Below are positions 12,074 through 47,380 of a stretch of 64,000 bases of DNA, in pieces. A program made the translations under genes and the position numbers. Under the pieces are notes generated by a model. That model worked only from the letters and a program-made list of their open reading frames with translations, did not search any database and was not told the origin of the DNA. This DNA is from Verrucomicrobiota bacterium (GTDB lineage Bacteria > Verrucomicrobiota > Verrucomicrobiia > Verrucomicrobiales > Akkermansiaceae): the NCBI GenBank assembly GCA_004293445.1, contig RDYP01000003.1, positions 124,001 through 188,000 on the forward strand, written 5' to 3'. Each line of letters starts with the position of its first letter. The stretch's first letter is position 1.

Positions 12074-15000
12074 ATGACCGCCGCTCAAATCAGGCAATCG
12101 TTCCTCGATTTCTTCCGGGAGAAACAGCACAGCATCGTGCCCTCCGCCTCGCTGCTACCGCAGTCGCCCGGCCTCCTGTTCACCAATGCCGGGATGAACC
12201 CCTTCGTCCCCTATTTCCTCGGCGTCGAAAAGGCTCCCTATGATCCGCCGCGGGCCGCCGACACCCAGAAGTGCATCCGCGCCGGCGGCAAGCACAACGA
12301 CCTCGAAGACGTCGGCTACGACACCTATCACCACACCTTTTTCGAAATGCTGGGGAACTGGTCCTTCGGCAACTACTTCAAAAAGGAAGCCATCCAGTGG
12401 GCCTGGGAACTGGTCGTCGAACGCTGGGGCCTGCCCGCCCACCGCCTCCACGCCTCCGTTTACGCGCCGAAACCCGGCGACCCGGGCGAGTTCGACCAGG
12501 AAGCCTACGACATCTGGGCCGAGCTCTACCGCTCGAAGGGCTGCGATCCCGCCGTGCAGATCGTCAACGGCAACGTGAAGGACAACTTCTGGATGATGGG
12601 CGAAACCGGCCCCTGCGGCCCCTGCTCCGAACTCCACGTCAACCTCACCCCCGAAGGCGATCCCAAGACCGGCCGCGAGTTGGTCAACAACGACTCCGAC
12701 CTCTGCATCGAGATCTGGAACCTCGTCTTCATCCAATACAACGCCGAGGCCGACGGCTCCTTCCGCGAACTGCCCGCCAAGCACATCGACACCGGCATGG
12801 GCTTCGAGCGCGCCTGCTCGATCATCCAGGGGACAAAGCGCTTCACCGATTTCTCGCAGAAGCCTAGTAATTACGCGACCGACGTCTTCCAGCCGATCTT
12901 CCGCAAATTGGAAGAGCTCAGCGGTAAGACCTACTCGAACATCTACCCCGCCCTCGGCGCCGACCGCTCGGCCTTCAGCGAGGAAATGAAGGACGCCATC
13001 GCCTTCCGCGTGATCGCCGACCACCTGCGCACGCTGAGCTTCTCGATCGCCGACGGCATCATGCCCGGCAACAACGGCCGCAACTACGTCCTGCGTCGCA
13101 TCCTGCGCCGCGCCGTCCGCTACGGCCGCCAGCTCGGTTTCTCCGGCGACAAGCCCTTCTTCGGCGCGCTGGTGGAAACACTGGTGAAGGAAATGGGCGA
13201 CGTCTTCCCCGAACTCAAGAACCGCCAGGACACGGTGCGCGCGACCTTGGAGCAGGAGGAGGCAAGCTTCAACCAGACGCTCGATCGGGGATTGAAGCGA
13301 TTTGAAGACGCGGTTGGGGAGCACACGCGCCCTCGCGTGTCGTCTGTGGCGCCCTCGCCACAGACCGGCCCGAAGTCATCCCAAAGCTCCGAACCCACCT
13401 ACACCCGCCGCAATCTCCCCCATTTCGAGCGTCCCTGGGGCAAGTACATGGTCACCTTCACGACGCTCGACCGCGACATCCTCAACGAGGCCGAGCGCAC
13501 CATCATTCTCGATTCCATCCTGAATGCCAGCAAGCTCGGCCAGATCTACCTTTATGCCGCCTGCGTAATGCCCGATCACGTGCACCTGCTGATCGAACCG
13601 CAGGTGAAAACGCAATCGCCGGATTCCGATCCCGTCTTCTTCACTCTCTCCGAAATTCTTCAAGCCATCAAGTCGGTCACATCCCACAAGATTCTCAAAG
13701 ACCGCCGCAAGGCACTCCAGAACGAGAACATCAAGCACCTCTGGAATCAGGAATCCTTCGACCGGTTGATTCGAAGCGAGTCCGACTTGATTGAGAAGTA
13801 TGACTACATCCTGAGCAATCCGGTGAAGGCCGGGTTTGCAAGCCGTTCCGATGGGTATGCCTGGACCTGGTGTCGGGAGTTCGACCGTGCTTCGGGCCAA
13901 GCCGGAGCCGAGGGCGGCTCCGGCGACACGCGAGGGCGCGTGTGCTCCCCGTTCTCAGGCGAAATCGCCTTCGAGCTTGAGGATACCTTCGGCTTTCCCA
14001 TCGATCTCACCGAATTGCTTTGCGCCGAGCGTGGGCTCGGCCTCGACAAGGAGCGCTACGAGGAATGCAAGAAGGAGCAACAAGATCGTTCCCGCGCCGC
14101 CCAGAAGTCCACCGTCGTCCGCGCACTCGACATTTCCACCGAGGCCGTCACCGAGTTCCTCGGCTTCGACACCGACGAAACCGAAGCGACCATCCTCGAA
14201 GTCCATCCGCAGGAAGACGCGCTGTTCATCATCACCGACAAGACGGTCTTCTACGCCGAGATGGGTGGCCAAGCCGGAGATACGGGAACTCTCGTAGTTG
14301 GCGGCGTCGAGATCCCCGTCACCGGCGTTCAGCAAGTTGGCAAGGCCCGCGCCCACGTCGTCGACGCCAATGCCAAGGTGAAGGCCGGCGATGCGGTCAC
14401 GCTAAAGCTCGACACCACCCGCCGCCGTCCGATCGAAGCCCACCACAGCGCCACCCACCTGCTTCACTGGGCGCTGCACGAGGTCGTCTCGAAGGACGCC
14501 GCGCAGCAGGGATCGTCGGTCGACGAGAACCGCCTGCGCTTCGACTTCAACAGCGCCGCGGTCACGCCGGAGCAGATCGCCGCGATGGAGGAGAAGGTGA
14601 ACGCCGCCATCAAGGCCAACGACGTGGTGTCGTGGAAGGAAGTCCCGCACGCCTCGATCAAGGGCCGGCCGGACATCATGCAGTTCTTCGGCGACAAGTA
14701 CGGCGACCTCGTCCGCGTCGTGCAGATCGGCGGCGGGCAAGGCGACCTGACCGGCTACTCGATGGAACTCTGCGGCGGCACCCACGTCCGGCGCACAGGA
14801 GAGATCGGACTGTTCAAGATCAAGAGCGAGGGCGCGATCGCGTCCGGCGTCCGACGCATCGAGGCCGCCTGCGGTGAGGCCGCCTGGGCCTACCTCAACG
14901 AAGCGGTCGAGAAATGGGACGCCGAACTCCAGGCCGCGACCGACAAGCTCAAGGCTGCCAACGCGAAGCTCGCCGCCCTCGGCGAAGCGCCGGTGACGGT

Positions 15001-15511
15001 GAACGAGTTCCCGCACATCATGGGCGCAATGCTGGTCGAGCGGGCGGATATTTCGCAGCTCAATGCCACTTTCGCCCATGGCCAGCGCACGCTTGAGGAG
15101 ACCAAGGAGGCCGCGATCGAGGCGGAGAAGCGCTTCAAGAAGCTGCAAGCCGGAGCCGCCGCCAAACAGGCCGACGCCGCGCTGGCGGAACTCATTGCCG
15201 CCGGCGGACCGATCGTCGCGACCTTCGAGGCCGATGCCTCATTGCTCCAAGAGCTGCTCAACGGATTCAAGAAACAGGGCTTCGGCGGTGCGGGCTTCGT
15301 GATTGTGGATGACGGCGACAAGCTGCACCTCGGTGCTTACTGTGGCGATGCGGCTTTGGCGGCGGGCCACAAGGCTGGTGATTTGTTGCGCGATCTTGCT
15401 GCCTTGGCTGGCGGTAAAGGCGGCGGCAAAGCGGATCAGGCCCGCGGCGCGGCACCGGAACGCGACAAGCTTGCTGCGATCGAGGAAGCTGCCCGCGCTC
15501 GGCTTGGCTAA
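12074..15511 (+). CDS. alaS: Alanyl-tRNA synthetase with an in-frame RAYT insertion
   Basis: AlaRS charges tRNA-Ala. Residues 1-414 hold the class II catalytic core (FLDFFREKQHSIVPSASLLP, then the AGGKHNDLEDVG and GNWSFGNYFKKEA segments). Residues 627-1145 resume with FSGEIAFELEDTFGFPIDLT, followed by the editing domain with HHSATH near 790 and CGGTH at 900-904, and the C-terminal domain. Residues 415-626 are foreign: a complete REP-associated tyrosine transposase with its inverted ends. Removing 636 bases (212 codons) restores an ordinary 933-residue AlaRS in frame. The frame stays open throughout. Whether the enzyme works with the insert, or another alaS exists, cannot be told from this window. 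Confidence 0.93.
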   Translation: MTAAQIRQSFLDFFREKQHSIVPSASLLPQSPGLLFTNAGMNPFVPYFLGVEKAPYDPPRAADTQKCIRAGGKHNDLEDVGYDTYHHTFFEMLGNWSFGNYFKKEAIQWAWELVVERWGLPAHRLHASVYAPKPGDPGEFDQEAYDIWAELYRSKGCDPAVQIVNGNVKDNFWMMGETGPCGPCSELHVNLTPEGDPKTGRELVNNDSDLCIEIWNLVFIQYNAEADGSFRELPAKHIDTGMGFERACSIIQGTKRFTDFSQKPSNYATDVFQPIFRKLEELSGKTYSNIYPALGADRSAFSEEMKDAIAFRVIADHLRTLSFSIADGIMPGNNGRNYVLRRILRRAVRYGRQLGFSGDKPFFGALVETLVKEMGDVFPELKNRQDTVRATLEQEEASFNQTLDRGLKRFEDAVGEHTRPRVSSVAPSPQTGPKSSQSSEPTYTRRNLPHFERPWGKYMVTFTTLDRDILNEAERTIILDSILNASKLGQIYLYAACVMPDHVHLLIEPQVKTQSPDSDPVFFTLSEILQAIKSVTSHKILKDRRKALQNENIKHLWNQESFDRLIRSESDLIEKYDYILSNPVKAGFASRSDGYAWTWCREFDRASGQAGAEGGSGDTRGRVCSPFSGEIAFELEDTFGFPIDLTELLCAERGLGLDKERYEECKKEQQDRSRAAQKSTVVRALDISTEAVTEFLGFDTDETEATILEVHPQEDALFIITDKTVFYAEMGGQAGDTGTLVVGGVEIPVTGVQQVGKARAHVVDANAKVKAGDAVTLKLDTTRRRPIEAHHSATHLLHWALHEVVSKDAAQQGSSVDENRLRFDFNSAAVTPEQIAAMEEKVNAAIKANDVVSWKEVPHASIKGRPDIMQFFGDKYGDLVRVVQIGGGQGDLTGYSMELCGGTHVRRTGEIGLFKIKSEGAIASGVRRIEAACGEAAWAYLNEAVEKWDAELQAATDKLKAANAKLAALGEAPVTVNEFPHIMGAMLVERADISQLNATFAHGQRTLEETKEAAIEAEKRFKKLQAGAAAKQADAALAELIAAGGPIVATFEADASLLQELLNGFKKQGFGGAGFVIVDDGDKLHLGAYCGDAALAAGHKAGDLLRDLAALAGGKGGGKADQARGAAPERDKLAAIEEAARARLG
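13316..13364 (+). repeat. Left REP-like end: two CCCT-loop hairpins
   Basis: Two adjacent stem-loops share the same four-base loop. The first is ACACGCG-CCCT-CGCGTGT (13323-13340), inside the terminal inverted repeat. The second is TCTGTGGCG-CCCT-CGCCACAGA (13343-13364). This paired-hairpin arrangement is what RAYT transposases recognise in known REP systems. Confidence 0.85.
13902..13950 (+). repeat. Right REP-like end: two AGGG-loop hairpins
   Basis: This is the inverted counterpart of the left end. CCGGAGCCG-AGGG-CGGCTCCGG (13902-13923) is followed by ACACGCG-AGGG-CGCGTGT (13926-13943), inside the right 27-bp inverted repeat. The outer hairpin is identical to the left one; the inner hairpin keeps the loop but has a different stem. 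Confidence 0.85.
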
Positions 15512-46240: not shown

Positions 46241-47380
46241 TTAGCTGAACACGCTTTTGCGAAGCTGGCGCAGATTGAATAATCGGTCTGCCGGATGACT
46301 GGGATCCGCGGCGAGGCCACGCAGCGGACGCGCGCCGTCCTTACGCTTCGGTCCGAAGCGCTCGCGGAAGGTCGCGAACAGCTCGTTCACAAAGTCTTTC
46401 CCTCCGATCGCGGCTCCATCGCTGAGGTAGCGGACCTTGCATCGGAGGTAGTCGGCCTCCGACAACTTTCCGCCCCGTGCCAAGACCTCAAGCGCCTTAT
46501 CCCGGGGGATGCGGTCGCGGTAAATATCCGCCCGATCCCCCTTCGCTGCCTCATTGCGCTGTCGCTCGGCCTGTTCAGGGATTCCGAAGAGATGGCATCG
46601 CCAGCGACGGAGGGCCTCCTTGGGTGGTAAGTTCGAGCGCCTAGAATTTGGCGAGCGGGAGATCGCGGGGACGGGCGACGAGGGAAAAGCAAGTTGCGGT
46701 TTCAATCCGCCGTGAGGATTGAGGGAAACGAGGAATTCCACCGCTTCGCGCGCTTCCTTGCCGCCGGCGATTGCCTCTGCATAACCGCACCAGCGATAGT
46801 CCTTGGGGTCATCGCAGATCTTGGCGCGGACTGGATTAAGGTCGATGTAGGCTGCCATTGCCCGTAGCGCCTGGCCTCTGCCCTCCACCAACACGGAGCG
46901 GAAACGGTCTTCCCACAAGGTGCCGCGGCGAGCATGGCGGCCATTGAACCATTGAGAAAAGCGTTGTTTCAGGACCTTCATGAAGGCGCTGACGTTCCAC
47001 ATTCGAGAAAACCATTTCTCGCGTAGAGCTTCGGCCGCCTCGTGATTGCCTTGTCCACGGAAGTGGGCGAGTTCCCACTCGAGCGCGACGGCTGACTTAT
47101 CGCCAAGGGTGGCTTGGACCTTTGCGACCAGAGCGGTATCATTTGGCAGGTCGGCGTCGTCCGGTCGCTGTGGGACTTCCACGAGGATGTGGAAGTGATT
47201 TGACATGATACAGTAGGAAATCACGCGAAGCCCGCCGAAGCGTTCGTAGATCCGCATGTATTCGACCAATTGGTCTCGCTCCGCATCGCCGAGGACGAAA
47301 TCGCGGTTCACCACTCGAGAGACGCAGTGGTAATAGGCAACAGGGTGAGTGGCGGGAGCTATCAGACGTGGCCGACGCAT
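46241..47380 (-). CDS. REP-associated tyrosine transposase (long RAYT)
   Basis: This is a Y1-type transposase of the RAYT class, 379 residues. It has YYHCVSRVVNRDFVLG near the start, the HUH motif MSNHFHILVE at about residue 68, the helical WFSRMWNVSAFMKVLKQRFSQWFNGRHARRGTLWEDRF segment, and the catalytic-tyrosine region AAYIDLNPVRAKI. A basic C-terminal extension follows. It differs from the short RAYT inside alaS. The start at 47380 is the ATG of MRRPRLIAPATHPVAYYH. Two direct repeats lie just upstream. Confidence 0.9.
   Translation of the reverse strand: MRRPRLIAPATHPVAYYHCVSRVVNRDFVLGDAERDQLVEYMRIYERFGGLRVISYCIMSNHFHILVEVPQRPDDADLPNDTALVAKVQATLGDKSAVALEWELAHFRGQGNHEAAEALREKWFSRMWNVSAFMKVLKQRFSQWFNGRHARRGTLWEDRFRSVLVEGRGQALRAMAAYIDLNPVRAKICDDPKDYRWCGYAEAIAGGKEAREAVEFLVSLNPHGGLKPQLAFPSSPVPAISRSPNSRRSNLPPKEALRRWRCHLFGIPEQAERQRNEAAKGDRADIYRDRIPRDKALEVLARGGKLSEADYLRCKVRYLSDGAAIGGKDFVNELFATFRERFGPKRKDGARPLRGLAADPSHPADRLFNLRQLRKSVFS

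Follow-up and report, generated by a model that had tools for sequence, protein, structure and literature searches.

A RAYT transposase carried in frame within alaS of a Verrucomicrobiota bacterium, and the intragenic habit of its nearest relatives

Mobile elements residing in essential genes are usually tolerated either because they splice out (introns and inteins) or on account of their very small size (REPs and RPEs). Inteins and homing endonucleases place an enzyme in conserved sites of essential genes, where they occur sporadically and alternate at one site. Closer to the locus studied here, RAYTs (REP-associated tyrosine transposases) are described, in the excerpt of PMC2817692 used for this work, as reading frames located between two inverted REPs. 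TIRYTs (TIRtrons) pair a RAYT-like enzyme with terminal inverted repeats (TIRs) that are long and partly self-complementary; some of these TIRs carry the motif GGGGWSAS (PMC3733652, in excerpt). Section 15 of that paper also covers intragenic REPs and Rickettsia RPEs, i.e., palindromic elements found within genes (in frame for RPEs). They occur in tRNA synthetases of some species, among other hosts, and widely within genes of the Verrucomicrobium O. terrae, and they code for about 20–82 residues; the section mentions no transposase in them. As for whole RAYTs lying in frame in core genes, we found no account of them in open-licence papers.

The window, i.e., the whole stretch of 64,000 nucleotides analysed here, contains such a case (Table 1). 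The initial annotation had reported a complete RAYT in frame within alaS, and this stands: one frame of 1145 codons carries, between alaS codons 414 and 627, an insert matching NCBIfam NF047646 (REP_Tyr_transpos) at 90.6 bits (cut-off 80) and Pfam Y1_Tnp at 38.3 bits (cut-off 23), while alaS families are matched both upstream and downstream of it (Pfam and NCBIfam). Residues 502, 504, 578 and 582 are H, H, Y and N, the inverted ends (13316–13342/13924–13950) are perfect over exactly 27 bp (28 bp fails), and there are two hairpins per element end (z −4.7 and −4.5 against 200 shuffles). The insert was also said to add 636 net bases while keeping the frame; the frame is indeed kept, but alaS has gained 205 codons net (615 nt) relative to its counterpart in the sister genome G007, since about 21 nt of the native loop were replaced. 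This sister, 98% identical over the N-terminal part of AlaRS, has no insert, so that the additional codons are missing from a related alaS, a check that the initial annotation had proposed.

Table 1. Coordinates of alaS, its insert and associated features in the window.
Feature	Position	Strand	Details
alaS, alanine--tRNA ligase with internal RAYT	12074..15511	+	single open frame, 1145 codons / 1145 aa
AlaRS N-terminal part, 414 codons	12074..13315	+	
In-frame insert, 212 codons	13316..13951	+	element proper = 13316-13950
Left inverted end, 27-bp	13316..13342	+	starts GGGGAGC
Left-end hairpin pair	13323..13364	+	13323-13340 and 13343-13364
RAYT (REP-associated tyrosine transposase) domain	13421..13864	+	extent of NF047646 match
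HUH motif, His502-Val-His504	13577..13585	+	
Tyr578 + Asn582, Y---N motif	13805..13819	+	
Right-end hairpin pair	13901..13943	+	13901-13924 and 13926-13943
Right inverted end, 27-bp	13924..13950	-	
alaS flank unusually diverged from sister G007	13952..14111	+	62-82% identity per 40-base step
Remaining alaS: editing (tRNA_SAD) + C-terminal (DHHA1, slightly below cut-off) parts	13952..15511	+	

The window genome (3.35 Mb in 49 contigs, 97.4% complete) was searched for a second alaS and only this one was found, which speaks against the duplication considered in the initial annotation; its other options, an insert tolerated in a loop or a functional fusion, fit the evidence. The RAYT is in frame at the loop of the only alaS found, with its HUH motif, its tyrosine and its hairpin ends intact. 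Within the first 150 bases of the insert, the in-frame starts are limited to GTG 13337, GTG 13346 and then ATG 13448, the latter already inside the RAYT core, so that only two GTGs, both within the left hairpin region, precede that core and a separate RAYT protein is unlikely. The number of close copies of the window RAYT in its genome is one; the same genome has nine NF047646 matches, while four others among the matches listed are below the cut-off (frames of 216–445 aa). Another Y1 transposase match lies elsewhere in the window (47168–47338, minus strand), in a frame of 399 codons.

We class the enzyme as a RAYT. It shares with RAYT/TnpA-REP proteins (REPtrons; E. coli, 4er8) the HUH and Y---N motifs, the fold and inverted hairpin ends that are also dispersed in the genome, but differs from REPtron RAYTs in being an internal domain of AlaRS and in having ends that start with GGGGAGC, not GTAG. 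The GTAG (or CGTC) tag was not found beside the hairpin, this tag being what defines REP classes, not the RAYT enzyme family; likewise, the stand-alone gene usual for RAYTs, a state that is not part of the family's sequence definition, is replaced here by residence inside alaS. The 14-base end GGGGAGCACACGCG has 11 exact occurrences in the window genome, two of which belong to the element itself; its reversed control, with one mismatch allowed, has none. Eight of the nine further copies were inspected, seven of which show, by eye, the same second hairpin (one was folded). Inverted end pairs devoid of this RAYT occur at G000:C12:13511-15617 and G000:C28:62799-63784 (L299 and L300), about 2.1 and 1.0 kb apart, and possibly carry other cargo. 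With TIRYTs, as presented in the excerpt of PMC3733652, the locus has in common a RAYT-like enzyme and long inverted, partly self-complementary ends; compared to GGGGWSAS, the motif given in that excerpt, GGGGAGCA (type A, the window's type) has two mismatches and GGGGAGCG (type B, introduced below) has one, and we found no report of TIRYTs residing inside other genes in the same excerpt. Unlike intragenic REPs and RPEs, the insert is here the whole element including its enzyme. The likeness to inteins and homing endonucleases lies in the conserved site within an essential gene, the sporadic presence and the alternation at one site; in contrast to inteins, there is no sign of splicing, an HUH transposase stands in for the homing endonuclease and the domain would remain in the protein. 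RAYTs, TIRYTs and short intragenic REPs are known (PMC2817692 and PMC3733652, both in excerpt), whereas the lifestyle, homing-like without splicing, appears to be new.

Modelling agrees with this classification. The RAYT-only model (pLDDT 87.8) aligns to 4er8 with Z 14.1 and rmsd 2.3 over 134 residues, the corresponding sequence-only match having an E of 0.018, while the whole-fusion model recovers both AlaRS chains and TnpA-REP 4er8 (E 1.4e-5). In the AlphaFold2 model of the fusion (35 aligned sequences), the RAYT (about 451–600) is at pLDDT 62–90 per 10 residues, and the linkers (417–445 and 603–624), flanked by helices 385–417 and 629–639, are below 50; the N-terminal catalytic part is poorly modelled over much of its length (19–100 and 218–260), and the placement of the domains is unsure, owing to the pTM of 0.42 and overall pLDDT of 73.7. 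Among 39 aligned cores including the window's, N is invariant and Y is present in at least 90%, the invariance of H being uninformative because the HUH motif was used to delimit the cores. More broadly, 121 of 125 RAYT cores show a Y---N pattern; the others include L229 (same genome as L116), L261 and L286, which have lost the tyrosine. In the alaS RAYT of G157 (L116/L229), a type-A member, the tyrosine is replaced (YDS for YDY) and the frame is still open.

When the insert was searched against 84,980 named species genomes, 175 relatives were recovered, of which the best 80 were kept, corresponding to 79 loci. Within this set, 77 of the 79 nearest relatives lie inside larger genes, in frames of at least 520 aa, only L261 and L281 being free-standing. 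By homology, the 77 hosts are AlaS (39), RecG (24), MetH (9), ThrS (4) and CarB (1); NCBIfam confirmed the hosts of nine representatives and served to assign the MetH host of L278. Wherever a group is given, the 79 loci belong to Verrucomicrobiota or its subgroups (one is labelled just “bacterium”), and the intragenic habit of the nearest relatives spans this phylum. One carrier of an alaS RAYT, Ereboglobus sp. PH5-10 (Opitutaceae; L265), is not labelled as a MAG, and its copy is at the end of a contig. Most RAYT sites on AlaRS are at the codon-414 loop, with a second site near codons 292–302 (L233, L236, L239, L263 and L279). In 22 genomes of the family, mainly chosen carriers, 60 of the 150 RAYT matches listed (the best ~150) are in frames of at least 500 aa, 20 being alaS. 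Loci covering 39 of the 40 non-alaS rows were fetched (G135:C73:93-404 was left out), and the 38 fetched loci are hosted by IspG (15), MetH (11), LeuS (5), CarB (3), HsdR (2), BioA (1; L183, a C-terminal fusion and not an internal insert) and a DUF1156-like protein (1; L215, whose host we take to be a “DUF1156” protein). In a control of 144 genomes of the phylum, only 11 of the 150 RAYT matches listed (again the best ~150, with frame lengths taken from that list) are in frames of at least 500 aa, the window's among them, which argues that the intragenic habit is a property of certain RAYT lineages rather than a consequence of frame length. The same count led us to reject the idea that long frames arise here by chance in GC-rich DNA. 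The rule put forward in the initial annotation, that RAYTs normally sit between genes, consequently holds for RAYTs generally (139 of these 150 matches are in frames below 500 aa) but not for the nearest relatives of the window RAYT, whose lineage-wide habit had been missed. Double occupancy also occurs: in Pedosphaera sp. (L236), one AlaRS has two RAYTs from different tree clades, near codons 292 and 412, and a single MetH of G184 (L212) holds two RAYTs.

At the alaS loop itself, three genomes display three states, G174 being empty, G187 carrying type A and G153 type B, with AlaRS proteins that are nearly identical (tree branches of 0.01–0.02) and distal synonymous sites that are 18–29% different. 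Their flanks are common to all, both types start with (G)GGGAGC and finish with CTCCCC, and both replace one identical stretch of the loop. In the family survey, the loop region was obtained from 238 of 260 genomes, with at least two matches in 46; 55 genomes were listed, of which 39 besides the window's were fetched and 15 left out, the loops of G251 and G025 being unread by the script. Type A was found in frame in 13 fetched genomes, all of genus code g13 (14 with the window genome), and type B in frame at the same loop in six family genomes, with B-like pieces at contig ends in G147 and G190. Sporadic presence at one conserved site and alternation of alleles, which characterize homing elements, are thus both observed.

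Type A was seen in alaS alone: its 13 hits in the species scan are all there, at 66–76% identity, and the 66 remaining loci are at most 52% identical to the window insert (best 80 of 175 relatives). These 13 hits are not independent evidence, since they come from the same 13 genomes as the family type-A carriers. Fourteen other RAYT-like loci, a subset of those in these genomes, were compared; 13 align over at least 90 residues at 20–31% identity and one (L036) over 21 residues only. Searches for a vector returned two plasmid records, at 30% identity or less, and no RAYT relative among phages and viral contigs. These results bear on ordinary transposition followed by selection, i.e., random jumps of which the rare in-frame hits in tolerant loops survive, with neither homing nor site preference. 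The many hosts and sites (alaS at ~414 and 292–302, recG, metH, ispG, leuS, thrS, carB and hsdR), the acceptance of non-RAYT inserts by the alaS loop and the dispersal of element ends through the window genome would all be natural under such a scheme. Yet we judge it unlikely, given that no possible source of type A turned up outside alaS (among the best 80 of 175 relatives and the 14 other loci) and that the RAYT tree groups by host gene: its host-gene labels require 18 changes, whereas shuffled labels average 70.6, a contrast to which near-copies contribute. In this tree (FastTree, 125 cores, L195 being left out for want of an HUH motif), the window RAYT falls in a clade of 14 rows, all AlaS, with a support of 100.

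The AlaRS tree (quick LG+G4, 85 rows from 82 genomes, with G002, G011 and G015 present twice) implies nine changes for type A, eight of them forced by starred branches, and six for type B, all six forced, with G008 scored as empty although its loop is 18 codons longer. Five carriers nevertheless form one AlaRS clade, and RAYT-A distances follow AlaRS distances (Mantel r 0.62 and 0.68, compared with 0.70 between the two AlaRS parts), from which we conclude that much of the inheritance is vertical. Overall, the element is inherited but is also often gained and lost at one loop. Among type-A cores, the median dN/dS is 0.094 (77 usable of 91 pairs), and the AlaRS of type-A carriers has 0.08 upstream and 0.195 downstream of the insert, values based on near-saturated synonymous sites (median pS 0.64); with that saturation in mind, type A appears to be under strong purifying selection. 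Such a ratio, the retention of most catalytic residues and the correlation of distances might suggest a domesticated domain that serves the synthetase or its host and descends vertically with losses. We consider this improbable, as presence is patchy among near-identical AlaRS proteins, two RAYT types alternate at a single site and relatives are housed in unrelated enzymes. The AlaRS estimates also speak against a non-functional alaS accompanied by an intact second one, which, like an assembly artefact, is scarcely credible. It is true that 13 of 13 type-A carriers of the species scan are labelled as MAGs, that two carriers (G147 and G190) break at the insert and that another AlaRS-like frame, at 45% identity, exists in the carrier G170. 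However, the 97.4% complete window genome has a single alaS, identical junctions recur in other assemblies and the RecG case L283 sits within a contig of 2.7 Mb, so that neither the misassembly nor the second intact alaS raised in the initial annotation was encountered. The second frame of G170, a type-A carrier genome with 4% contamination, is at G170:C28:8601-9413.

Synonymous divergence around the loop was examined as well. Window alaS and G007 are 85–97% identical in 20 of 21 off-junction steps of 120 bases (77% in the last), whereas the two junction steps are at 70% and 78%, and one 40-base step there falls to 62%; a comparison of 28 alleles revealed no clear donor for this divergent flank. 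We then compared 140 pairs, drawn from 67 genomes, with a distal pS below 0.40; these pairs are not independent, and the summary omits 11 in which both members have a non-RAYT insert. Median pS rises from 0.36 distally to 0.66 near the loop in the 46 same-state pairs (43 rising) and from 0.36 to 0.79 in the 83 discordant pairs (78 rising), while in the insert-free genus g3 (20 genomes, a state judged from loop matches of even length), 36 pairs of like divergence stay at 0.32 to 0.32, with 19 rising (97 of all 190 pairs). Since insert-bearing genera peak and g3 is flat, the loop resembles a hotspot of exchange or repair, but only in lineages with circulating inserts. The peak also appears in empty/empty pairs (G007/G005) and is absent from the trio G187/G174/G153 and from some A/A pairs, and thus does not by itself mark an insertion; the flank tract was rejected as a clean insertion mark for the same reasons.

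Given that its closest relatives are nearly always inside core genes, the insert looks like a mobile element surviving as an extra domain of enzymes that the host cannot lose. There is strong support for a reading in which the ribosome would pass straight across the insert, with no splicing, AlaRS would fold around a tethered RAYT and still work, and the RAYT would be made as a part of AlaRS. Removal of the insert at the RNA or protein level, in the manner of an intron or intein, would leave a normal final AlaRS and account for tolerance in essential genes, and the self-complementary element ends would suit it. A spliced RNA, though, need have no open frame, yet stop codons are absent from the matched part of all 79 relatives (best 80 of 175), all 20 complete alaS inserts from the family, which vary in length, are open, and neither intein nor intron families are listed for the fusion in Pfam and NCBIfam scans, which makes removal very improbable. 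Our preferred explanation, which we regard as probable, is that this RAYT mobile element lives in host genes as a translated, tethered domain and spreads in a homing-like manner at one loop. The RAYT, with its predicted ssDNA cleavage activity retained, may cleave the loop as ssDNA, after which recombination, or transposition from another cell's alaS, could spread it among alaS alleles; the same-loop spread, together with the lack of any outside source among those searched, suggests homing. Residence in an essential gene would provide expression without a promoter and a shield from deletion, through which the element may persist. It would then behave like an intein- or intron-borne homing enzyme, except that splicing is not needed. 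A bolder version, to which we give slightly less than even chances, is that an HUH transposase targets fixed loops in essential genes by homing, becomes part of the host enzyme through translation, with no need of splicing, and drives rapid turnover of these loops, the unrelated non-RAYT alleles of the AlaRS loop being its scars or resistant host alleles.

Many Verrucomicrobiota thus carry, in repeated instances, a whole and apparently intact transposase as a domain of an enzyme, which offers a testable case of selfish DNA sheltering in essential genes and indicates natural insertion-tolerant sites in AlaRS, RecG, MetH, IspG, LeuS, ThrS and CarB. Such elements can be hidden when long proteins are discarded, as in PMC6006769, where (in the excerpt used) “unexpectedly long” proteins were set aside as “gene fusions or annotation errors”.

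Several other features of the AlaRS loop deserve a brief description. Non-RAYT inserts of about 30–143 residues occupy it in 15 genomes (L130–L137 and L139–L145) and in L008. Of the 17 such loops compared, including that of G181, just three pairs match at E < 0.1, and one loop type is common to two genera (G008/G188, 50% identity, E 2e-10). The G181 loop (L138) has type-B-like ends in frame without a RAYT, i.e., a remnant or a REPIN-like form. In the loops of G180, G144 and G190 (L121, L124, L148 and L149), an end-like unit (GGGGAACGTT..., NTAAGDTAAG) forms in-frame tandem repeats that adjoin a RAYT or a contig break. Finally, just past the loop, the window (13979–13981) and the alleles of G015, G011 and G176 (L140, L141 and L137) read LED where most alleles read LYD, possibly reflecting compensation or a common loop ancestry.
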